A DNA stretch of 64,000 nt from Spirochaetota bacterium (GCA_016933025.1 JAFGBT010000014.1:1-64000), one strand, 5' to 3'; positions 2,661 to 19,345 are shown, numbered from the stretch's first letter. The notes: generated by a model from the letters alone, not told the origin. A program made the numbers and translations.

Positions 2661-5600
2661 ATGAGTTTTATTCGAGAATTCCATTATTCCAATATTTCAC
2701 AGAGAAAAATTCTTGATTACAATAATTTTCTCTCGTTCGTGCTTATGTGCGCTTTTTTTTCAGATGTCTCCTTCCAGTTACAGTCTTATTTTTTCTATTA
2801 TTCTGTCGTAAAATTAATAGTGATGTTTGGATTTGCAGGACTTTGCGCCGGCAACCTTACGGGAAGGCTGTTGTTTTCTAAATTTCAGAGTTTCCGGCAT
2901 GTCTATATTATTTCTGAGCTTTTCTTCCTCGCGATATTTCTCCTGTATGCCTTACGAAATAGTATTATGCCGGCCGACTTTGAATTTATCCTGTCGCTCT
3001 TTTTTGTCTCGCAGTATGCTATTCCCGGTCTGATTTTTCTCACGATGTTTTTTTTCGGCATCAAGCTGCATTATTCCATCAGAGTCTCATGCGGGAACTT
3101 TATCGATAAAAAATATGCCATTGAGCAGTTCATCGGTTTCATGTTACTCGGCATATCGCTGGGGATCGCCATATCCTCGGCCATGTATTACTTCGGCGTT
3201 CCTCTTATATACATCGCCCCTCTGGTGCTTGTAATACTGCCGTCAACCTTTCTGATGAACCTGACATACAATCCCGCTCCTTTGTATGCGAGGGAAGACG
3301 AGGACGACAGGGTCCGCGAGATTGATGCGCCCGCCGGCAAAAGGCCTGAGGAGACATCATTCGCCTACCTAAACTTCACGTATGTTATCGTCTATACAAC
3401 ACTCGGCTTTGCCAGCATAAGCAAGTATTATGGCAACCTTATACATGTGGAAATGGTGTTTATCGCGCTGTTCTTCCTCATATTCCTGGGAGGATACATC
3501 GCAGGACGCTATCTCCGGCTATCAAGACTACACATTTATGGCCAGTCATTTCTCCCCCTGCTCTTCCTGGTGTTTCTTATCCTGCTGATGAGTTTCAGCG
3601 GGCGTCTTACGTATACCGGCAGCATCCTGCTCTTTTCACCGATGATTCTACTGATGGGAATAGTGATTCGTCATACCATCAGATTCATCATAACCGAAGG
3701 GGAAAATAATAAACGGGCGACCATTATTGAATTTGCCTTTCTCATACTGCCGGCGCCTATTATCATCTCGATCAGCCTCATTCAGTTTACAAACTTCCTG
3801 TTTTATGCGGCAGTATGCGTCCTGATGCTTCTGAATGTCATAGTCCCGGCCATCTACATGGTGAACAGCGACATCAAGGGATTTAAAAAAGCGATGTTTT
3901 TTATTATCTCGCTCTTTTTCCTTCCGCTTTTTATTTTCATAGTCGCCTACTTCCGAATATCATTGGACGGCAGCGTTTACGTGACGAGGGTGGCAAATTT
4001 CGATGAGCTGAAGAATATTAATTACAACGCGGATTACATTCGCGGCAGGGCGACGATAAGATTGAAGGGCCTGCCGGTCTTTAAACTCTCTGACAGCGTG
4101 GTCCGCAACCAGAAGCGTTCGCTCCTTCCGGTCGCCTTCTACCACGGCGCTGAGAATAAAATTCTGTTCATCGACGGATACCAGAGGTTTTTCAGAAACC
4201 CGATCATCGGGTATTTCAGATATTCGGCCTGTCTCGATGTCCTTTCCGAACGCGACGCGGATTATAAAAAGCTCCCCATTTCGGGGAGCCAGAGATACAT
4301 TCCTGATTCGGGTGATCTTCTTTATTATCTTGCCAGGCACGATACGGATTATTCAACGATCGTCGATATCCCGAACCTTCTGGATCAGACGATGAATTCA
4401 TTCAGGTTTTCGAGTGAGTACTACCGGCTCATTAAAAAGCGGCTTGACACCGGGGGCATATTTTGCCAGGCCATCAATATTCCAGGGGTCAGCGCCGACC
4501 TGTTTGCGTTTGCCGTGCAAAACCTCCGCAGCTCATTCAAGAAGCAGATCGTCTTTTATTTTTCCAATGTCATGATTGTGCTTGCGTCGGATGACGTGCA
4601 GGCTTTCGTCGTGAATCAGGAGCGATACGGGCGGTTTTTGAAATTTATAGCTGCCCATGATGAAGTTTTGAAGCTTTTCCAGAACGATGTCCACCTTCTC
4701 TCCCATCTCCTGTATACCGGGATAGACGATCTCATCCCATTTACGCGGCGGGGAGCGTCGGTCGACGGCATATTTTTCTCACCGGGCGGGAAACTCAGTC
4801 TCGCTGAAAAGCTTTATGACACCTATATCTCAGGAAACCAGAAGGTATTCGAGCTCCTCGATAAGTCACCCGAGCAGTATGCGTTCGCGCAGGGCTTTAT
4901 GAGCCCGTTCCTGACTGAGAACGCCGTACTTTCGCTCCTGAAAAAAACCGAGCTGGCCGAGGCGCGCGGCAAGTTAAGCGAGGAGACCGGGCTCCTCTTT
5001 GAATTAAAGAAGCAGGCCGAATTCCGGGCCACGCTCCAGGACTATGTGCGCTTGATGATGTCATACAAGGAAAAATATTACTATAATATGGCGCTCATGT
5101 TTGAAAAGAACAAGAAATGGGAAGAGGCGCGAGAGCTGTACCTCTCCGTCCTGGCTATACGTCCGGACAATTTCGAGGCCAATTACCGGCTGGGTCTGCT
5201 CTGCATCACCCTTCAGGATATTGAGTCATCATTCAAATATCTTCAAGAAGCTATGCGGATAAGGAAGGAAAACCCGAAGGTGCTTTTCCAGATGGGCGTC
5301 CTGTATTTTTCAACCGGCAAGACCGAGGAGGCCATGAACTATTTCAACAGGGTGCTCCAGCTGAACGATAAAACGCCCTCGGTATTCAGATACCTCGGTT
5401 TGTGCTATGAAAAGTTCGGCAACCTGTACGAGGCCGAACGGTATTATGCCCGCGCAATTATTGCTGATCCCAATGATGTTGATACCAAGGCTCGCCTCGA
5501 TGAAGTGAGGATGCAAATTGAAAAGGAAAACAGGAAATGGGAGACCCCGGAGCAGAAAAACGAGCTGGATGTGGAGCAGGACGCGGACATGCCGTTGCCG

Positions 5601-5732
5601 GTAAGCAAAGGAGCGTATGACATCCGGCTAAAAGACAGCGAGGTAACCCTTCCCGTGATCGACCAGGCCTCCGGGAAAGATATTCAGGCAGACATGGGAG
5701 GAGGGGATAAGGACGCCGGGGTGCAGAGGTAA
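2661..5732 (+). CDS. Polytopic membrane protein with degenerate spermidine-synthase-like domain and C-terminal TPRs
   Basis: This 1023-residue protein has three parts. Residues 1 to about 430 form many hydrophobic segments (roughly 10-12 membrane spans) with one charged loop near 215-235. Residues about 480-640 resemble the Rossmann part of spermidine-synthase-like proteins: a strand ILFIDGYQRFF near 500, then YSTIVDIP near 562 and a helix-strand FSSEYYRLIKKRL-TGGIF near 582-603. The glycine-rich SAM-binding motif is absent, so catalysis is doubtful. Residues about 805-958 hold four TPR units, followed by a charged tail. Membrane-fused spermidine-synthase-like proteins are a known bacterial family; their substrates are mostly unknown. 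The start follows GGGGGAG at a long spacing. The next gene follows after a 55-bp gap that contains a six-codon ORF. Function unassigned. Confidence 0.75.
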   Translation: MSFIREFHYSNISQRKILDYNNFLSFVLMCAFFSDVSFQLQSYFFYYSVVKLIVMFGFAGLCAGNLTGRLLFSKFQSFRHVYIISELFFLAIFLLYALRNSIMPADFEFILSLFFVSQYAIPGLIFLTMFFFGIKLHYSIRVSCGNFIDKKYAIEQFIGFMLLGISLGIAISSAMYYFGVPLIYIAPLVLVILPSTFLMNLTYNPAPLYAREDEDDRVREIDAPAGKRPEETSFAYLNFTYVIVYTTLGFASISKYYGNLIHVEMVFIALFFLIFLGGYIAGRYLRLSRLHIYGQSFLPLLFLVFLILLMSFSGRLTYTGSILLFSPMILLMGIVIRHTIRFIITEGENNKRATIIEFAFLILPAPIIISISLIQFTNFLFYAAVCVLMLLNVIVPAIYMVNSDIKGFKKAMFFIISLFFLPLFIFIVAYFRISLDGSVYVTRVANFDELKNINYNADYIRGRATIRLKGLPVFKLSDSVVRNQKRSLLPVAFYHGAENKILFIDGYQRFFRNPIIGYFRYSACLDVLSERDADYKKLPISGSQRYIPDSGDLLYYLARHDTDYSTIVDIPNLLDQTMNSFRFSSEYYRLIKKRLDTGGIFCQAINIPGVSADLFAFAVQNLRSSFKKQIVFYFSNVMIVLASDDVQAFVVNQERYGRFLKFIAAHDEVLKLFQNDVHLLSHLLYTGIDDLIPFTRRGASVDGIFFSPGGKLSLAEKLYDTYISGNQKVFELLDKSPEQYAFAQGFMSPFLTENAVLSLLKKTELAEARGKLSEETGLLFELKKQAEFRATLQDYVRLMMSYKEKYYYNMALMFEKNKKWEEARELYLSVLAIRPDNFEANYRLGLLCITLQDIESSFKYLQEAMRIRKENPKVLFQMGVLYFSTGKTEEAMNYFNRVLQLNDKTPSVFRYLGLCYEKFGNLYEAERYYARAIIADPNDVDTKARLDEVRMQIEKENRKWETPEQKNELDVEQDADMPLPVSKGAYDIRLKDSEVTLPVIDQASGKDIQADMGGGDKDAGVQR

Positions 5733-10044: not shown

Positions 10045-13000
10045 TTGAGCAATAAAAGAAAGCATATCAGGGTGTCATACGAAAAAAAGGTAGAACTGTT
10101 TGCCGATGGAAGAACCTTTTCCGGAAAATCAATTGATATAAGCAACAGCGGGATCCAGGTCGTTGTCAATGACCCGGTCTCTCACGTATCAGTTCAGAGA
10201 ATTGCCTTCACGCTGCCGGTCGGCCCGGACGTGCTTCACATTCCATGCAGGGTTACTCGGAGCGAAAGCAGCAGCCCGGAAGATGACGGGCAGGTCCTGG
10301 GAATTGAATTTTCCTATCAGACTGAAGCGCAGATGCTTCTCGTCGAGAACTTTATCAGGGATATGAAGAACAACCAGCTGTCGCATGCCCCTGAAAAGTC
10401 CGACCTTAGAATTATTCCGCGGACCGCCTGTAATCTCCTAATGGTCTCAATCGATAAAAGCAATGTCACTATCGTGTCCATCGATAATATTTCAACCGAA
10501 GGCTGCCTCATCAGCTTCGAGGGAAAGCTCAGGGCACATGAGACGATCGATATCGAATTCTCACTGCCGAGAGATTCCAGGCGGATCAGGGCATCCTGCA
10601 CAGTGGCGTACGTAATAAATGATTATTTCAAGAGCACCAACCGGGCGGGATTATTCTTCACCAGAATGGCCGATATTGATTCGATCAAGATACACAATTT
10701 TATCGTCAAATCTGTTTCCAGCACGGCAATACGAAACATTCAGGAGCGAAGGAACGAACATGTCATCGGGAATGAATACCAGATATACGAACAGGAGAAG
10801 ATCGGCAAATTATTTCTTCTTCTTAAAAAACAAAAGGGACGGATTAATGTTCTTTTTGAGAACAGCATCACGCTTTATGAGCTTCATATAAAAAGCAGCA
10901 TAACGGATGTGGCCATATTCACCACCACGTCGCCGGGTGAAATCGAAGAGATGGATCTGGCAAAATACCTGCCGACCTATTTTTCATTTTACCTGCATGG
11001 ATCAAGCTATTATTTTAAAAGCGAGCTCCTGGATTTCTGCGGCGAGCGACTGACATTTGCGTTCCCCGCCGTTCTCTATCAGTCGGAAAAACGATCCCAT
11101 GAGAGAAGGCACCTCGGGTATGATATTGATATATCAGTGGAAACTGATGAAGCAAAACTTGTCCAGCTCCAGGGAAGGCTGGTCAATATCAGCAGGAGGG
11201 GTTTTCTCTGCAATGTGAATATCGATCCTTCTCAAAAGGAGCTCTTTAAATCGGGACAGCCGGTCTACTATGTCCTGGAGCGTGACCTGGGTCTGGACAG
11301 CTTCGGGGAGATACGGCACCTCAAAGAACACTCATCCTGCGGCGACGGGATTACGATTCAGATGGGAATTGAAGCCGGCATCAGAAGGGCTGATTTCAGG
11401 TTTAAAAAGTTTTCGCGCCGGCAATGGCGGGCGCACAAGCTGCGCAAGAACCGGGACCCGGAGGGAGCGAATCAGGCCCTGCGCTCCGACGTCGTTTCGT
11501 ACATGAACCGTGACGGGAAGGAAATAGTAGCGCTTTTAAATTACACGCACCTTCACGCCGAGGTCCCGGTCGTTATACTCCCGCCCGCTTTTGGAAAGAA
11601 AAAGGAGGCCCTCTCACTGCTGTCCGCGACGCTGATAGAAAACTTCAAACGATACGGCAAGGATATCGTCACGCTCAGGTATGACGGGATCAACAGGCCT
11701 GGCGAAAGTTACCACGAAGACATGTGCCAGAAGCGGGGCTATGAGATGCTCCATTACAGAATAAGCAGCGGGTTGAACGATCTTGAAGCCACCGTTGACT
11801 TTGCATATAATAACGGGCTCTTCAGGCCCGTACGAGTCATCGTGGTGGCGTTCAGCATGTCCGCCCTTGATGCGCGGAAGCTTGCTCTCAAGGACAAAAG
11901 AGTCGATTATCTGGTCAACGTCATGGGGGCCACCTGCGCGCGAAGCGCGTTCAGGAATGTCACCGGCGGGATCGACATCATCGGCAACGCCCGGATCGGC
12001 GTTAAAAACGGTCTTGCCGGCGTTCTCGGGCAGATCCTTGACCTTGACACTGTAGCGCGGGACCTGATTGAGAACAAATACGCATATCTCGCGGACGCGC
12101 GGCATGATATGTCGAAAATCGACATTCCGGTCACCTGGATTTATGGAAAATATGACCGGTGGATATGCGAGCGGGAAATACTTGATATCATGAGCGTCAG
12201 AGGAGGTGGTCCGCGCGAGGTGATTGAAATACCGACCGGCCATAACCTTCGTTCTAGCGAGGACGCGATAAAAACATTCAAAATGATCACTAACATGATA
12301 TATCGCCAGATCCACGGAAAGAACATCAGGCCCTTTGACCCGGATCGCCAGGGAATGGTGAATCTGATCACCTATGAACGCGAGCGATTGTCCCGGCAGG
12401 TCGAAGTCGATATCAATGAATACTGGAAGGATTATCTCATCGGGGAGAACAGGAACAGCGTTGGCTACGATTTTTACAAAAACTTTGACGAGTTCCGGGA
12501 GTTCCTTTCTTTCCAGGGGTCTCTCGTCGATCTGAGGAATGGCGAAATGATGGCCGACTTCGGCTGCGGAACCGGTATATTCATCGAAAAAGTGCTGGAG
12601 GATCTTGCGTTAAGGGGGATTGACTGCTCTGACACGCGACTTCTTTTGGTCGATCTCGTCCCGGAGGCGCTCGAAAAAACAGGGAAAAAATACGAGCGGC
12701 TCAGGAGCTTATACGGCAGATTTATTCCGAACATTGCCGAGTTGATTCAAATGGACCTGGAACCAAGCCGATTTCTTCCGGTCAAGCGCTTCATGGAAAA
12801 CAGGGATCTGAATTACAATTACTTGAGAAATCGGGTTGAAGGACTTAAAAATACGACCATTGACCTGTTGAATGACCTGCGTTCGGAAAAGTTAGATGAT
12901 GTAATGCGGGGCGCTCCGGTAACCCCCGGCATTCTACAATTTCTCAGGGGGCAGTTCGGCGAGGAGGAAACGAAGGCGATACTCGATTTTAATCGGGCGG

Positions 13001-13581
13001 CTCGCTACCTATCCGGGACACTAACCAAAGCCGACCTGGCTCCGAGTGCTGCATCGCGTACCGGAATGCGGGAGAATGATTATAGTAATCGTGCTGCCTC
13101 TGAGATACGGTTCGATACGCTGTCATTCGGCACCAAGGGCATTGAATTCAATATTAATTTCAATGACAGCACCTTCGATAAGATCACGGCCAGCCTTCTG
13201 GTCAGTTATCTTTTTAATCCCGACGAGGTTGTTTTTGATTTTTATCGACTGCTAAAACCGGGCGGACGGTTGATAGTATCTTCAATGATACCTGACAGCG
13301 ATATATCTCTTATTTTCATAAATTATATCAACAAAGTATGGAGTTTTGAGCTTTCTGCCGAAGAAATGCGAAACAGGGAGCAAAACCTGCTGGCTGCGCG
13401 GACAATGCTTAATGAAGCGGCCGCCCTGTTCCAGCTGGAAGAGGACGGGTATTTCAGATTTTATACGGGCGAGGAACTTGTGTCCATGCTGCAGACGGCG
13501 GGTTTTATCAATATTGACGTGCATTTTTCACTCGGTGACCCGCCACAGGCGGTCATTGCAACAGGCATAAAACCTGCATAG
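10045..13581 (+). CDS. Triple PilZ - LuxD-like acyl hydrolase - methyltransferase fusion protein
   Basis: This 1178-residue soluble fusion protein starts at TTG. Three PilZ (c-di-GMP-binding) domains each keep both motifs: R5-x3-R9 with DISNSG (31-36), R122-x3-R126 with NISTEG (148-153), and R350-x3-R354 with NISRRG (381-386). The third follows a YcgR-like N-terminal segment (about 240-345). Residues about 485-760 form an alpha/beta hydrolase resembling LuxD, the lux acyl-ACP thioesterase. The nucleophile elbow is AFSMS (Ser604), the acid is Asp704 in GKYDRW and the base is His733 in TGHN. Residues about 800-1178 are a SAM methyltransferase with ADFGCGTG (837-844) and FYRLLKPGGRLIV (1066-1078), split by an insert of about 150 residues. 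The acyl ligase starts 1 bp after its stop. I infer c-di-GMP-controlled release and methylation of an acyl product. Confidence 0.82.
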   Translation: MSNKRKHIRVSYEKKVELFADGRTFSGKSIDISNSGIQVVVNDPVSHVSVQRIAFTLPVGPDVLHIPCRVTRSESSSPEDDGQVLGIEFSYQTEAQMLLVENFIRDMKNNQLSHAPEKSDLRIIPRTACNLLMVSIDKSNVTIVSIDNISTEGCLISFEGKLRAHETIDIEFSLPRDSRRIRASCTVAYVINDYFKSTNRAGLFFTRMADIDSIKIHNFIVKSVSSTAIRNIQERRNEHVIGNEYQIYEQEKIGKLFLLLKKQKGRINVLFENSITLYELHIKSSITDVAIFTTTSPGEIEEMDLAKYLPTYFSFYLHGSSYYFKSELLDFCGERLTFAFPAVLYQSEKRSHERRHLGYDIDISVETDEAKLVQLQGRLVNISRRGFLCNVNIDPSQKELFKSGQPVYYVLERDLGLDSFGEIRHLKEHSSCGDGITIQMGIEAGIRRADFRFKKFSRRQWRAHKLRKNRDPEGANQALRSDVVSYMNRDGKEIVALLNYTHLHAEVPVVILPPAFGKKKEALSLLSATLIENFKRYGKDIVTLRYDGINRPGESYHEDMCQKRGYEMLHYRISSGLNDLEATVDFAYNNGLFRPVRVIVVAFSMSALDARKLALKDKRVDYLVNVMGATCARSAFRNVTGGIDIIGNARIGVKNGLAGVLGQILDLDTVARDLIENKYAYLADARHDMSKIDIPVTWIYGKYDRWICEREILDIMSVRGGGPREVIEIPTGHNLRSSEDAIKTFKMITNMIYRQIHGKNIRPFDPDRQGMVNLITYERERLSRQVEVDINEYWKDYLIGENRNSVGYDFYKNFDEFREFLSFQGSLVDLRNGEMMADFGCGTGIFIEKVLEDLALRGIDCSDTRLLLVDLVPEALEKTGKKYERLRSLYGRFIPNIAELIQMDLEPSRFLPVKRFMENRDLNYNYLRNRVEGLKNTTIDLLNDLRSEKLDDVMRGAPVTPGILQFLRGQFGEEETKAILDFNRAARYLSGTLTKADLAPSAASRTGMRENDYSNRAASEIRFDTLSFGTKGIEFNINFNDSTFDKITASLLVSYLFNPDEVVFDFYRLLKPGGRLIVSSMIPDSDISLIFINYINKVWSFELSAEEMRNREQNLLAARTMLNEAAALFQLEEDGYFRFYTGEELVSMLQTAGFINIDVHFSLGDPPQAVIATGIKPA

Positions 13582-13582
13582 T

Positions 13583-15013
13583 ATGGATAGAGCATTGATA
13601 CCAGTTAGTAGTGAGATGAAAATCATAGAAAAAATATATCAATCATTGGGTTCCTGGGGTGATCAGCCGGCATGCATTGAATTGTGTCCCGATAATTCAG
13701 TGGCACACGTATCGGCCCCTCAGCTTAAAGAACGAATTAACGATGCATCGCGCATGCTGAAAAAATACGGGATCAGGAAGGGTTTTATTGCCGCGTTATT
13801 TCTTAATAATTCAATTGACTTCATTTCAATTTTTTTTGCGCTGATTGAAATCGGGGCTACGCCCATACCGGTTAACATGGCATTCCGTGCAATCGAGCTT
13901 GATGAAATATTTTCGAACGCGGATCCTCATGCCGTAATCACGGAGAAGGACCACCTGAAGGTCATCATGAAGTATTTGAGCGGCAGGATCGTCGTTGAAC
14001 GGAATGGAGGAAATTTCCTGATGCGTGATTCTGGTGCGGGCGGTTTCGGCAGGGGGCCGGCCGAGGTCGATCATTCCATTGCTACAATAAATTACACCTA
14101 TCGCGGTTATGGATACCCATTGGGTGCGATGGTGCCGCACATACAGTACCTTTTTGGTTCCGAGCTCCTGCAGGAGGCTGTGCGGTTGGATGCAGGCGAG
14201 CGTCTTCTGGTCGTGCTTCCAATGCCGCATATTTTCACATTAATCGGATGCATTTTTCTTCCACTCATATACGGCATAACACCGGTGATATCACGGAGCA
14301 GGAACCCCCTGCGTTTGTTTGAGACTGTACATGCCTACCAGATACAAAATATACTCGCGGTGCCGGAGCTGTATGAACTGCTTTATAAATTTCGGGATTC
14401 GGCGGGCGATTGTACGCCGCTGAATGCATTTCTATCGGGAGGAAGCGTGATGCCCGATGAAATGTATGGACGACTGGTCGATGAATTCGATGTCGACTTG
14501 ATTCACGGGTACGGTTTGACCGAGTTCACGCCGGTGAGCAGAAACATACGGGGAGATATCAGGCCGGGAACGATCGGCATGGTATGCGACGGTCTCGAAT
14601 ACAAAATTGATCCATGTGATGAATTCGGCTTTGGCGAGATACTGATACGAACAGAGAACATGACAAAGGCGTATTATCGTCGGTCCGCAGAGTCGCGGGA
14701 TGTCTTTCAAAATGGATGGTTCAGAACCGGCGATATTGGACGGGTGGAAGACGGGCATCTGATTTTCAAGCGCGAGAAAAAGAAAACCAGAAAGGTCAAG
14801 GGCAACATGGTTGACCTTCTGGAAGTGCAGAGGATTCTCATGGAATACCCGAAAATGAGAAATGCGATAATAGAGTGCAACGATAGTATCCTCTCTGCGG
14901 CTGTTGAAATTGACTCGGCAAGGAATTTTGATAGCGAGGTTCTTTCAATTAAAAAATTTCTTGAAGATCGGATTGCCGGATATAAAATACCGAAGATATT
15001 TTCACGTATTTAA
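13583..15013 (+). CDS. AMP-forming acyl ligase (ANL superfamily) with altered P-loop
   Basis: This 476-residue adenylate-forming enzyme probably activates a carboxylic or fatty acid for transfer to CoA or the neighbouring ACP. Seen motifs are YGLTEFTP (A5), GWFRTGDIG (A7) and a C-terminal GYKIPK with the likely catalytic Lys (A10). The phosphate-binding loop, usually YTSGTTGxPKG, reads NYTYRGYGYPLGA, so the usual Ser/Thr and Lys are replaced. Some acyl ligases are known to carry a TYRG-type loop, so it need not be inactive. The A8 hinge is also unusual (KREKKKTRKVKGN). The start is 1 bp past the previous stop with no clear Shine-Dalgarno site; ATG 13616 is an alternative. It belongs to the PilZ/ACP/radical SAM locus. 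Confidence 0.82.
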   Translation: MDRALIPVSSEMKIIEKIYQSLGSWGDQPACIELCPDNSVAHVSAPQLKERINDASRMLKKYGIRKGFIAALFLNNSIDFISIFFALIEIGATPIPVNMAFRAIELDEIFSNADPHAVITEKDHLKVIMKYLSGRIVVERNGGNFLMRDSGAGGFGRGPAEVDHSIATINYTYRGYGYPLGAMVPHIQYLFGSELLQEAVRLDAGERLLVVLPMPHIFTLIGCIFLPLIYGITPVISRSRNPLRLFETVHAYQIQNILAVPELYELLYKFRDSAGDCTPLNAFLSGGSVMPDEMYGRLVDEFDVDLIHGYGLTEFTPVSRNIRGDIRPGTIGMVCDGLEYKIDPCDEFGFGEILIRTENMTKAYYRRSAESRDVFQNGWFRTGDIGRVEDGHLIFKREKKKTRKVKGNMVDLLEVQRILMEYPKMRNAIIECNDSILSAAVEIDSARNFDSEVLSIKKFLEDRIAGYKIPKIFSRI

Positions 15014-15403: not shown

Positions 15404-15426
15404 TAAAGTGAAGTGCGAGGTTGTTT

Positions 15427-16719
15427 TTGAAAATCGGTCTTATCAGTCCGGTCGGAGTGACCACGAGTGATGTGCTTTTAAGCCATATTTTCGATGAAAA
15501 TAGGGACTTGAATAATTATATCCAATCATTTACTCGTGCCATTAGTTCTGGTCTGTTGGTTATTGCGTCTTTGACCCCAGAGGACATAGAAATCAAATTA
15601 ATTGATGATAATTTCGATCGTATAGACTATGATGAACGCTTTGATTTGATCGGAATATCTGCTATGACTCATCAGTCGACTCGTGCATATGAAATTGCCA
15701 ATGAGTTTAAGAAGCGCGGTGTGCCTGTCGTAATTGGAGGAATGCACGCGACAGTATTGCCAAACGAAGTGAAGGAACACTGCGACTCGGTATTCATCGG
15801 CGAGGCGGAAGATACCTGGCCTCTGTTTATTCAGGATTTTAAAAATGGAAGAATATCGGAATTTTACAAATCGGAACGCCTCATCGACATGTCTAAAACG
15901 CCAATTCCGCGATATGATCTCCTAAAAAAGGAAAAATATAAAGTAATATGGCTGCAAACGAGCAGGGGCTGTCCGCATGATTGCGAGTTTTGCGGTTCTT
16001 CAAGGGTATATGGATATAAATACAGGCATAAAACGATCGACCAGGTGATTGATGAATTACATGTTATACATGCCATATGGCCTGACGCACGCATCAATTT
16101 CGCAGATGACAATCTACTGGTGGATAGATCGTTCTCGAAAAAATTATTCACGGAATTAAAGAAGTTTAATTTTAGATGGTTTGCCCAGACTGACATATCT
16201 ATCGCTGAAGACGAGGAATTTCTTAAAGAGTTGAAAGATGCGGGTTGTACGACGCTTTTCATCGGTTTTGAGAGTATATCAGAAAATAGCTTGATGACGA
16301 TAAATAAAAACAAATGGAAATTGAAGCATCTGAAAAATTATCCCCAGGCGATAGAAAACGTCCAGTCAAAAGGGATCGGCATTGTCGGTGCTTTTATCAT
16401 AGGTCTGGATGGTGATACGAAAGAGACCTTTCAGGAGCTCATAGATTTTATTGTCAATAATCGTATCTATACGCCCCAGATTACAATATTGACGCCTCTC
16501 CCGGGCACCAGGCTGTACGAACGGCTAGAAAATGAAAATAGACTTTTACATATACCGTGGAATCACTATACATTTACCGAGGTCAGTTATATTCCAAAAA
16601 ATATGTCGGCTGTTGAATTACAGAACGGTCTGTATGAAATATACGAAAAGGTATACAATAAAGAAGTGAGGGCTGCAGTATTAAGGCATTTTAAAAATAT
16701 CTTTAAAGAAATCAATTAA
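15427..16719 (+). CDS. B12-binding-domain radical SAM protein
   Basis: This protein of about 430 residues has an N-terminal cobalamin-binding Rossmann domain (GISAMTHQSTRAYEIA, VVIGGMHATVLP, FIGEAEDTW) and a radical SAM core with SRGCPHDCEFC. The family does methylations, ring closures and other radical chemistry on unactivated carbons; the reaction here cannot be read from sequence. Two in-frame TTG starts exist. TTG 15427 is chosen because GCGAGG (15415-15420) is then 6 bp upstream; for TTG 15421 the spacing would be zero. It follows the ACP gene by 23 bp and is probably in one operon with it. The gene is AT-rich relative to the region upstream of 13.5 kb. Confidence 0.88.
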   Translation: MKIGLISPVGVTTSDVLLSHIFDENRDLNNYIQSFTRAISSGLLVIASLTPEDIEIKLIDDNFDRIDYDERFDLIGISAMTHQSTRAYEIANEFKKRGVPVVIGGMHATVLPNEVKEHCDSVFIGEAEDTWPLFIQDFKNGRISEFYKSERLIDMSKTPIPRYDLLKKEKYKVIWLQTSRGCPHDCEFCGSSRVYGYKYRHKTIDQVIDELHVIHAIWPDARINFADDNLLVDRSFSKKLFTELKKFNFRWFAQTDISIAEDEEFLKELKDAGCTTLFIGFESISENSLMTINKNKWKLKHLKNYPQAIENVQSKGIGIVGAFIIGLDGDTKETFQELIDFIVNNRIYTPQITILTPLPGTRLYERLENENRLLHIPWNHYTFTEVSYIPKNMSAVELQNGLYEIYEKVYNKEVRAAVLRHFKNIFKEIN

Positions 16720-16789: not shown

Positions 16790-19345
16790 ATGGTCAATGC
16801 CAATTTATTGGAGCAGTACAAAGCAGAAACGCTGAATAGATGCAACAAAATGGTCGCTTTTGTATCGCTATTTGTTTTATTCGGCAATTTTTTCTACTGG
16901 ATATTGGATTATATGATGGATAGTTCGAGAATTATCCAATTCATTATCGTACGGTCACCTCTCAGTCTAATCATGCTTATTATATTTCTGATAGCAAAAA
17001 CTAAATTTGGCTATAAATATTCAATGTATCTGGCGGTAGCGATTGCGATTATTACCTCGTTTTCGATAACGATACTTATACATATGACCGGCGGTTCTTC
17101 GAGCCCCTATTATGCCGGTTTGTTGATCGTCCTCTTCGCTCTGTGCATCTGGTTGCCGATAACCTTTAAGCTCGGCGTTATCTCGGCTGTAACGATATTT
17201 TTAATGTATAATGTGCCGTTTCTCGCCGCTAACAGCGTAACGGATTGGTCAATCTTCATCAGCAATAACTATTTCATCATTTTTATTTTTTTCCTCTCGG
17301 TTACTTCTTTAAAGTTTTATAATGACATCAGGTTCAATGAATTTAAATCGAGGTATGAACTGCAGCAATCCAACAACGACCTGGAGATGCTCACCGATGA
17401 GCTCGCCGAGTCCAATGAAAAGCTCCTGATCCACGACCGGCTTAAGACCGAGTTCTTCACCAACGTGAGCCACGAGCTCAGAACGCCGCTCACCCTTATA
17501 CTGGCGCCCCTTCCGAACCTTATCGAGGAATGGCAAAAGATGCTCCCCGAGGTGGTGAAGGATACGCTGATAATGATGCAGGCCAACGGTCTGCGGCTCC
17601 TCAAACAGATCAACAATCTTCTGGATTTCGCCAAGCTGGAAGCGGGCGGGATGCGTCTCAATATACAGGAGGTGGACCTCATCGATTTCTGCAAAACGAT
17701 CATCGCCTCGGTGCAGCCGCTCGCGTCGAGTCAGGGACTCAAGCTCTACTTCCAGTACCAGATGGAGGACGAGATCCGGGTGCTGATCGACACCGGGCAG
17801 TTCGAGAAGGTGGTGATGAACCTCCTGCACAACGCCATCAAGTTCACGGGCGAGGGGGGGCGGATTACTCTGCTCCTTGACGATCGTGAGAATGATGTGG
17901 AGCTCACGGTAGAGGATACCGGCGTCGGCATTCCTATCGAAATGCTGGAGACGATTTTCGACCGCTTCGCGCAGGTGGACGGATCGTCAACGAGGAGCCA
18001 GGAGGGGACCGGTCTCGGCCTGTCGCTTGCCCGGGAGATTGTCGAGCTGCATGGAGGGTCAATACGCGCGGAGAGCGTGCAGGGGAAGGGGTCCCGGTTT
18101 ATCGTCCATATAAAGAAGGGCGGGGAGCATATCAGCGATGATATACGTGATCGCCGAAAGGCGACGCAGCCAGTGCAGTACAAGAAACGCGCCAGCGATG
18201 TCGAGGGCCTGAAGCTCAGCGATGTGGTGAGCAACTACCGTAACCTGCAGCTCATAGACCTCGAGCAGAAGATTGACCTGGACAACTACGACCACCGGAG
18301 CGGCTCCCATGACTTTACCATCCTGGTGGTAGACGACAATCCGGATATCCTCAGGCTGATGCATTTCCTCCTGAACGATGAATTCGACCTGCTCCTCTGC
18401 AGATCCGGAAAGGAAGGACTGGCGTTTCTCAGGGAGCATAACCCGGACCTGATTGTCTGTGACGTGATGATGCCCGAAATGGACGGATATACGTTTTGCC
18501 GGGAGGTCAAAAATGACCAGAATTACAAGCACATACCGATCATCCTGGTAACCGCCCGGGCCGGGTCGGAAATGCTTGTTCAGGGGATCGATTCGGGAGC
18601 CAATGACTATGTCGCGAAGCCGTTTGACGCGGCCGAACTCAAGGCGAGGATCCGCTCCCTCCTCAGGACGAGGAACGTTGAGGAGGCGCTTGCCCTGGCC
18701 AACTACAATCTGAAAATAAGAACGGATGACCTGGTCGACCGGCAGAGGTCGCTTCTCCACTCCACGGTCAAGTCCCTGGTCTCAACCATTGAGGCAAAGG
18801 ACAACTATACCAAGGACCATTCATTCCGCGTGAGCAGGTACTCTCTTGCCATAGCCAGGAAGATGGGTTTTGCCGAACATGAGCTCAACGATCTTGAGCT
18901 GGCAGCTCTGCTCCATGACGTCGGCAAGATAGCCGTGCCGGAAGAAATCCTTCATTATGAAGGGAAGCTGAGCGAGCAGGAATTCAGCTATATCAAGAAC
19001 CACCCTTTGCATGGCGCAATGATAATAAAGCCGATCACTGAATTCAAGAACGTCGCATCAATTGTTCTCGCCCATCATGAGCATTATAACGGGAAGGGAT
19101 ATCCTTATGCGCTCTACAAGGATGATATACCGATAGGTGCCCGTGTTATGGCCATTGCCGACGCCTACGATGCGATGACATCTGAGCGGCCCTATCGCTC
19201 GGCCCTTTCCCATAACTTCACTGTCAAGGAAATCGTTCGCTGTTCGGGCACGCAATTTGATCCGGGCATTGTCGATGTGTTCCTTGGAATCCATGAACTC
19301 CTGAGTGAAATCAGGAATAATTCCACCCAGGCACCTGAAAACTAG
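16790..19345 (+). CDS. Membrane hybrid histidine kinase - receiver - HD-GYP phosphodiesterase
   Basis: This 851-residue signalling protein has about six membrane spans (residues 20-175) with no large periplasmic domain, then a short coiled coil. The kinase core follows: H-box FFTNVSHELRTPL (His228), N-box NLLHNAIKF (Asn347), G-boxes DTGVG (376-380) and GTGLGLS. A receiver domain (about 508-625) has DD515-516, phosphoacceptor Asp558 in CDVMMPEMDG and Lys610. A C-terminal HD-GYP domain (about 655-845) has LLHDVGK (His709-Asp710) and HHEHYNGKGYP (762-772), the residues of active c-di-GMP phosphodiesterases. Signal input should pass by phosphorylation to c-di-GMP breakdown. It follows the radical SAM gene by 70 bp and opposes the PilZ protein functionally. 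The membrane part is AT-rich while the rest is GC-rich. Confidence 0.93.
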   Translation: MVNANLLEQYKAETLNRCNKMVAFVSLFVLFGNFFYWILDYMMDSSRIIQFIIVRSPLSLIMLIIFLIAKTKFGYKYSMYLAVAIAIITSFSITILIHMTGGSSSPYYAGLLIVLFALCIWLPITFKLGVISAVTIFLMYNVPFLAANSVTDWSIFISNNYFIIFIFFLSVTSLKFYNDIRFNEFKSRYELQQSNNDLEMLTDELAESNEKLLIHDRLKTEFFTNVSHELRTPLTLILAPLPNLIEEWQKMLPEVVKDTLIMMQANGLRLLKQINNLLDFAKLEAGGMRLNIQEVDLIDFCKTIIASVQPLASSQGLKLYFQYQMEDEIRVLIDTGQFEKVVMNLLHNAIKFTGEGGRITLLLDDRENDVELTVEDTGVGIPIEMLETIFDRFAQVDGSSTRSQEGTGLGLSLAREIVELHGGSIRAESVQGKGSRFIVHIKKGGEHISDDIRDRRKATQPVQYKKRASDVEGLKLSDVVSNYRNLQLIDLEQKIDLDNYDHRSGSHDFTILVVDDNPDILRLMHFLLNDEFDLLLCRSGKEGLAFLREHNPDLIVCDVMMPEMDGYTFCREVKNDQNYKHIPIILVTARAGSEMLVQGIDSGANDYVAKPFDAAELKARIRSLLRTRNVEEALALANYNLKIRTDDLVDRQRSLLHSTVKSLVSTIEAKDNYTKDHSFRVSRYSLAIARKMGFAEHELNDLELAALLHDVGKIAVPEEILHYEGKLSEQEFSYIKNHPLHGAMIIKPITEFKNVASIVLAHHEHYNGKGYPYALYKDDIPIGARVMAIADAYDAMTSERPYRSALSHNFTVKEIVRCSGTQFDPGIVDVFLGIHELLSEIRNNSTQAPEN

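Follow-up and report, generated by a model that had tools for sequence, protein, structure and literature searches.

Can a second messenger act directly on acyl chemistry within a single polypeptide chain? The enzymes with a built-in PilZ receptor known to date come mainly from polysaccharide synthesis. The question is raised by a gene in a 64,000-nt stretch of DNA from a Spirochaetota bacterium (GCA_016933025.1 JAFGBT010000014.1:1-64000; this whole stretch is hereafter referred to as the window, and coordinates are counted in it). At 10045-13581 (+), a single uninterrupted frame of 1178 codons encodes a 1178-residue fusion protein (the fusion), in which two PilZ domains, a YcgR-N/PilZ pair, a LuxD-like alpha/beta hydrolase and a class I methyltransferase with an insert of ~130 residues follow one another. 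A preliminary description of this DNA had proposed this same domain order, and Pfam, AlphaFold fold matches and profiles all agree with it. A literature search, with preprints and most subscription papers out of reach, returned no paper combining PilZ with LuxD and none describing such a fusion.

One reading frame joins PilZ, hydrolase and methyltransferase domains

We confirmed that the fusion is real. Chance can be dismissed because three of the genus's five other genomes hold full-length orthologs that are 57-63% identical and show no internal rearrangement, and because the remaining relatives are ~30-51% identical; most of the ~30 loci with the whole fusion lie at 35-50%. The TTG start codon aligns with the ATG start of the three congeneric orthologs. 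An ortholog also occurs in a distant genome of this phylum (37% identity), and this member proved essential: a search of contigs with the single fusion protein gave no matches, and an alignment including the distant sequence was needed. Scanning GTDB species contigs with the resulting five-sequence alignment yielded 32 loci, 31 of which are relatives, almost all from metagenome-assembled genomes (MAGs) of uncultured Spirochaetota, plus two Desulfobacteraceae MAGs. The last match, in Luteibacter (L055), is a short methyltransferase stretch alone and was rejected as a relative of the fusion.

In every sufficiently long copy a single frame spans the PilZ, hydrolase and methyltransferase parts, with the exception of one Desulfobacteraceae copy (L026). 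A split into separate genes in relatives would have counted against the preliminary description, but no real split was found, and the appearance of two open reading frames (ORFs) in L026 is due to a single frameshift inside the second PilZ domain. Mean column identity is highest for the hydrolase (61%), intermediate for the methyltransferase (47%) and lowest for the PilZ part (40%).

Pfam detects three PilZ stretches and methyltransferase families in the fusion, and leaves the hydrolase under its cut-off in this one sequence, so that profile and structure work was needed for this part. For the methyltransferase, the S-adenosylmethionine (SAM) motif I is kept in 30/30 homologs, and the Pfam families agree with the methyltransferase proposed earlier. 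The boundaries of its large insert were deduced from sequence and motifs; LRxRxEGL and NRAAR patches are conserved within it. A search of PHROGs with the fusion gave a weak, generic tRNA-methyltransferase match only, in the methyltransferase part.

The hydrolase domain is most similar to LuxD

An AlphaFold2 (AF2) model of the hydrolase (286 residues, 30 sequences) has a predicted local distance difference test (pLDDT) score of 87.9 and a predicted template modelling (pTM) score of 0.88. When its Foldseek matches were re-scored with VIA-align, LuxD of Vibrio harveyi (1tht), a myristoyl-acyl carrier protein thioesterase, ranked first (Z 27.7, root-mean-square deviation (rmsd) 2.6, 256 residues aligned; next 25.2), while Foldseek alone places LuxD second. 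In a sequence-profile search of the PDB, LuxD was the sole significant match (E 2e-4; next 0.28). The corresponding Pfam family, PF02273 (Acyl_transf_2), is matched by 24 of 30 members at E<=0.1 (best 8.7e-9), the window sequence by itself scoring 16.8 bits versus a curated cut-off of 20.3. Families missing from the fold-match lists were not counted as evidence.

As in LuxD, the nucleophile elbow is of the AxSxS type (A-F-S604-M-S606 in the window, the second Ser being Ala in 7/31 homologs) and is combined with a Ser-Asp-His triad that is invariant: S604 in 31/31, D704 in 30/30 and H733 in 30/30 homologs. The LuxD-like elbow with its Asp and His had been noticed before, and the assignment to LuxD is better supported than the preliminary description could know. 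On this basis the domain would be a thioesterase. Unlike LuxD, the hydrolase described here shares its chain with PilZ domains and a methyltransferase. The likeness does not extend to a bioluminescence-type fatty-acid reductase (Lux complex), which we set aside because LuxC has no match in the window's own genome.

Three PilZ domains retain near-invariant ligand motifs

The motifs RxxxR and [DN]xSxxG are the signatures of canonical PilZ domains that bind cyclic di-GMP (c-di-GMP) (PMC11800159, PMC10333796). All three PilZ domains of the window carry both, as had been claimed, and both are near-invariant among homologs that include the respective region: RxxxR is present in 28/28, 31/31 and 33/33 copies of the first, second and third domain, and [DN]xSxxG in 30/31, 28/32 and 33/33. 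Each domain would accordingly be a candidate receptor for c-di-GMP.

Fold comparisons point in the same direction, with matches to the PilZ domains of MotI, Alg44, 4xrn and YcgR at Z 12-15. Residues 2-118 match the MapZ and YcgR PilZ domains (Z ~12-13) and the second domain those of 4xrn and Alg44 (Z ~13). The folds thus came out as PilZ and alpha/beta hydrolase, as the preliminary description had required of a structure prediction. Residues 241-349 resemble the YcgR-N of E. coli YcgR (5y6h; Z 12.2, rmsd 2.4, 104 aligned), and residues 233-447 match whole YcgR, MrkH and PP4397 (YcgR 5y6f at Z 13.5 over 233-446), even as the Pfam family PilZNR matches just 1/30 family members. YcgR-N lies directly before the third PilZ domain, which is the arrangement of the YcgR family. 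The fusion hence shares with YcgR, MotI, PP4397 and the spirochaete YcgR homologs (PMC11800159) a YcgR-N followed by a canonical PilZ domain, and differs from them by adding two canonical PilZ domains before and two enzyme domains after this pair.

A conserved putative operon encodes a dedicated acyl carrier protein

To place the fusion in its genomic context, operon neighbours were counted by local profile searches over all fusion loci, the denominators being the loci that reach the gene in question (Table 1). An ANL (AMP-binding) gene follows the fusion in 25/25 loci. The gap after it is filled by a gene for an acyl carrier protein (ACP), a short ORF below the 150-residue limit of the ORF listing, which is present in 21/21 loci, in L029 after the radical-SAM gene. 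PF00550 is matched by 20/20 scanned members, and the attachment-site residues D46 and S47 are invariant, as befits an acyl carrier. The window's genome has eight PP-binding matches in all, this ACP among them. Because this dedicated ACP gene lies two genes downstream of the fusion, the idea of an acyl-ACP substrate gains weight.

A gene for a B12-binding radical-SAM protein lies between the ANL and kinase genes in 14/19 operons reaching the kinase and is absent from 5/19; its best family matches, all under cut-off, include hopanoid HpnJ and a ladderane-type lipid family. The gene for a membrane histidine kinase-receiver-HD-GYP protein is found in 19/19 loci. In the window, this protein has a transmembrane part (residues ~1-175), HisKA/HATPase (219-443), REC (511-622) and HD-GYP (664-826) domains. 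Its membrane input (16790-17314) contains a patch, [HQ]xxxGxxSxYYxG, that is conserved across 19 loci; no named family in Pfam or NCBIfam matches this input domain above cut-off, and one relative has a sub-threshold MASE8 match. With 13 GGDEF matches in the window's genome, synthesis of c-di-GMP is likely, and together with 12 PilZ matches they indicate that this genome does use c-di-GMP signalling.

The ANL protein is non-canonical. It resembles FadD13 (3r44) over nearly its whole chain and retains the A5 (GYGLTE) and A7 (TGD) motifs. By contrast, the A3 P-loop (TSGTTGxPKG in FadD13) is replaced by NYTYRGYGYPLG at 14090-14128, the A8 Arg by Glu398 (14774-14776), and the chain stops before the A10 Lys region. 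A motif table of 24 loci, aligned to canonical ANL enzymes, revealed that all copies reaching the motifs read TYRGxGYPLG or a near variant at A3, have Glu for the A8 Arg and lack the A10 Lys, so that none of them has the three features expected of an active ANL ligase. Since this rewritten pattern is conserved, a repurposed ANL protein looks likelier than decay.

Upstream of the fusion and conserved in congeners, window 2661-5732 encodes a 1023-residue protein with a polytopic membrane part, C-terminal tetratricopeptide repeats and a weak spermidine-synthase-like stretch (E 0.007).

Table 1. Coordinates of the fusion's domains and of the genes downstream of it in the window.
Feature	Coordinates	Strand	Basis
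PilZ domain 1 (residues 1-113)	10045..10383	+	Pfam PilZ; R5xxxR9 and D31xS33xxG36; MapZ/YcgR PilZ fold matches
PilZ domain 2 (residues 119-227)	10399..10725	+	R122xxxR126 and N148xS150xxG153; 4xrn/Alg44 PilZ fold matches
YcgR-N, PilZN-like (residues 241-349)	10765..11091	+	Fold match 5y6h
PilZ domain 3 (residues 350-448)	11092..11388	+	R350xxxR354 and N381xS383xxG386; PP4397 2gjg/3kyf, YcgR 5y6f
LuxD-like alpha/beta hydrolase (residues 480-760)	11482..12324	+	AF2 model, 1tht fold match, PDB profile, PF02273
Hydrolase triad	S604 11854-11856; D704 12154-12156; H733 12241-12243	+	Invariant in homologs
Class I SAM methyltransferase (residues ~790-1178)	12412..13578	+	Pfam Methyltransf_11/12/23; motif I D838xG840CG842TG844
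Methyltransferase insert, ~130 residues (~908-1038)	12766..13158	+	Between DLEP and FDKITASLLVSY segments; alignments
FadD-like ANL (AMP-binding) protein	13583..15013	+	Pfam AMP-binding E 7.6e-45
Acyl carrier protein, 90 residues	15131..15403 (including stop)	+	DELGIDSIM phosphopantetheine site; PF00550 E 2.8e-12
B12-binding radical-SAM protein	15421..16719	+	Pfam B12-binding and Radical_SAM
Membrane histidine kinase-receiver-HD-GYP protein	16790..19345	+	Pfam; motifs

Possible joint gain and loss, and probable transfer, of the fusion and ANL genes

One congener (G002) has no fusion, and its ANL relatives are low-scoring only, none at ortholog level. The absence of both genes fits a cassette that is gained or lost as a unit. 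In this genome, an IMPase gene is followed by an HsdM-like gene, and xseA is preceded by an HsdR-like type I restriction gene (named by eye from translations). These type I restriction-modification genes (L062 488-2104 and L063 8952-11000) thus stand beside genes that flank the cassette elsewhere, and the locus is a possible swap site, at which one cassette may have replaced the other, the restriction genes lying on two separate contigs. Another genome of the set (G004) lacks not only the fusion but the flanking genes too, and is uninformative.

In Desulfobacteraceae, the fusion and the ANL gene (L026 8565-13555 and L027 2638-6660) are nested among spirochaete copies. The two fusion copies, which come from MAGs with separate isolate names, are sisters in the hydrolase tree, a placement that one transfer fits better than two independent mis-binnings. 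Horizontal transfer of the fusion and ANL genes to Desulfobacteraceae is therefore likely, judging from these sequences.

Discussion

What might such a chain do? Starting from the domain make-up, the PilZ and hydrolase folds, the conservation of motifs and the conserved gene order, we infer a mechanism that includes c-di-GMP binding, the direction of control, substrate, product, the order of the enzymes and catalysis controlled by binding. In this mechanism, to which we give about an even chance, the fusion would act in a dedicated lipid pathway as a c-di-GMP-gated acyl-ACP hydrolase or transferase and as a methyltransferase, and c-di-GMP feedback would come from within the operon. A c-di-GMP-responsive module, made up of the three PilZ domains with YcgR-N paired to the third, would shift relative to the C-terminal enzymes and toggle the hydrolase on or off; the presence of three such domains could make this control graded or cooperative. 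Given an ACP and a LuxD-like hydrolase, acyl-ACP is the predicted substrate, with the hydrolase taking the acyl chain off the ACP encoded two genes downstream, or transferring it from there. Either the acyl product or its acceptor may be methylated, as the presence of the methyltransferase in this chain suggests. The ANL protein would handle the acyl group on or off the carrier, and in operons that have it the B12 radical-SAM protein could add a further modification. The sensor kinase would lower c-di-GMP through its HD-GYP output upon a membrane signal, thereby closing the loop.

The strongest evidence for this idea is the operon context predicted from gene order (ACP, ANL protein and HD-GYP sensor kinase). 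The preliminary description had missed it, while its folds, LuxD assignment and unsplit fusion all held up, and the case for the fusion is now stronger than it was then. A catalytic chain bearing its own c-di-GMP receptor, as predicted here, recalls cellulose synthase BcsA, classed as an effector-PilZ protein (PMC10333796); BcsA, however, is a membrane glycosyltransferase with one PilZ domain, whereas the fusion has three and would carry out acyl chemistry.

Several observations weigh against the c-di-GMP-gated mechanism. First, the hydrolase is remote from LuxD (~15% identity in the fold alignment with 1tht), and generic esterases and lipases come near LuxD in score (Z 25). Second, the AF2 model of the PilZ region (pLDDT 78.7, pTM 0.44) does not give the domain arrangement: at this pTM the single domains are usable, their mutual arrangement is not. 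Third, to judge from its motifs, the ANL protein is possibly inactive as a ligase. Fourth, the HD-GYP motifs deviate, so that phosphodiesterase activity is not certain. In the window they read HDVGK, HHEHYNGKGYP (NGKGYP versus DGxGYP, D to N) and ADAYDAM, and outside the window's genus (L029-L054) HQE stands for HHE and ADAYHAM, ADAWHAM or ADSWHAM for ADAYDAM, changes that could reflect an altered metal site. Within the window's genus HD-GYP activity is thus plausible; in other relatives it is uncertain.

The c-di-GMP-gated mechanism can be specified in two ways, each unlikely when taken singly, and their probabilities overlap with that of the general mechanism, of which they are specific forms. 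In the first, the operon would make and sense a diffusible or membrane fatty-acid-type signal, like the Rpf/diffusible signal factor (DSF) system, in which the acyl-ACP thioesterase RpfF, the fatty acyl-CoA ligase RpfB, the membrane hybrid kinase RpfC and the HD-GYP regulator RpfG cooperate (PMC4504480). Freed from acyl-ACP by the hydrolase, the signal would be counteracted or salvaged by the ANL protein and sensed by the membrane kinase-receiver-HD-GYP protein, and through the PilZ domains the c-di-GMP level would act back on the synthase. The functional parts equal rpfF, rpfB, rpfC and rpfG, which in Xanthomonas likewise bring thioesterase, FadD-like ligase, membrane hybrid kinase and HD-GYP regulator to one locus (PMC4504480), and the patch kept in the membrane part of the kinase across 19 loci also speaks for this form. 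However, a Pfam scan of genes in the conserved operon found no crotonase-type RpfF synthase, the sensor input resembles no named receptor above cut-off, and a membrane-lipid pathway would show the same gene content. The operon differs further in that kinase and HD-GYP are fused in one chain, that a dedicated ACP, a methyltransferase and a radical-SAM protein are present, and that the candidate synthase carries PilZ domains. Given a different synthase family and a sensor with no recognisable relationship, we do not file the operon as a member of the Rpf/DSF systems; it is analogous to them in its predicted logic.

In the second form, the product of the cassette would be a structural lipid of the membrane, such as a fatty acid or head group that is methylated or radical-modified. 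This lipid would be tuned by c-di-GMP to the sessile or motile state, and the kinase would sense the state of the membrane and not a signal. This would account for the ACP, ANL and methyltransferase parts, for the HpnJ and ladderane-type matches of the radical-SAM protein and for the polytopic membrane input of the kinase. On the other hand, the conserved set holds no elongation, desaturation or glycerolipid acyltransferase gene, and the radical-SAM gene is dispensable. The gene content is equally compatible with both forms.

Outside the gated mechanism, we consider it rather improbable that the PilZ domains merely place or scaffold the enzyme, for instance at the membrane or the flagellar motor, with c-di-GMP exerting no control over catalysis. 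Pairs of YcgR-N and PilZ act through protein contacts in YcgR and MotI. YcgR is listed as working in this way (PMC10333796), and of all parts of the fusion the PilZ region is conserved least; yet ligand motifs that hardly vary among ~30 homologs in any of the three domains agree with ligand binding. A BioH/BioC-like scheme, in which an ACP-bound diacid has its carboxylate masked by the methyltransferase and unmasked by the hydrolase, appears highly improbable: hydrolase, methyltransferase and ACP do occur together and a BioC profile matches weakly over a generic stretch (7e-6), but at 26 bits versus a cut-off of 185, and we set the scheme aside given a hydrolase that is LuxD-like by profile and fold and no match to bioB (biotin synthase) above cut-off in the window's own genome (91.6% complete).

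The fusion, with a dedicated ACP and an HD-GYP sensor encoded alongside it, would allow direct control of acyl or lipid chemistry by c-di-GMP to be tested on one polypeptide after purification. A second question within the same operon is posed by the ANL protein, which is conserved although three of its catalytic motifs are rewritten. More broadly, the operon suggests that a second messenger is coupled directly to lipid chemistry in a self-contained circuit. In its most far-reaching version, which we put forward with low confidence, a c-di-GMP-gated hydrolase-methyltransferase with its own ACP and a repurposed ANL protein devoid of standard adenylation would be joined to a membrane kinase-HD-GYP receptor that reads the product and resets c-di-GMP, and would amount to an Rpf/DSF analogue of independent evolutionary origin, with c-di-GMP acting directly on the synthase of the signal.

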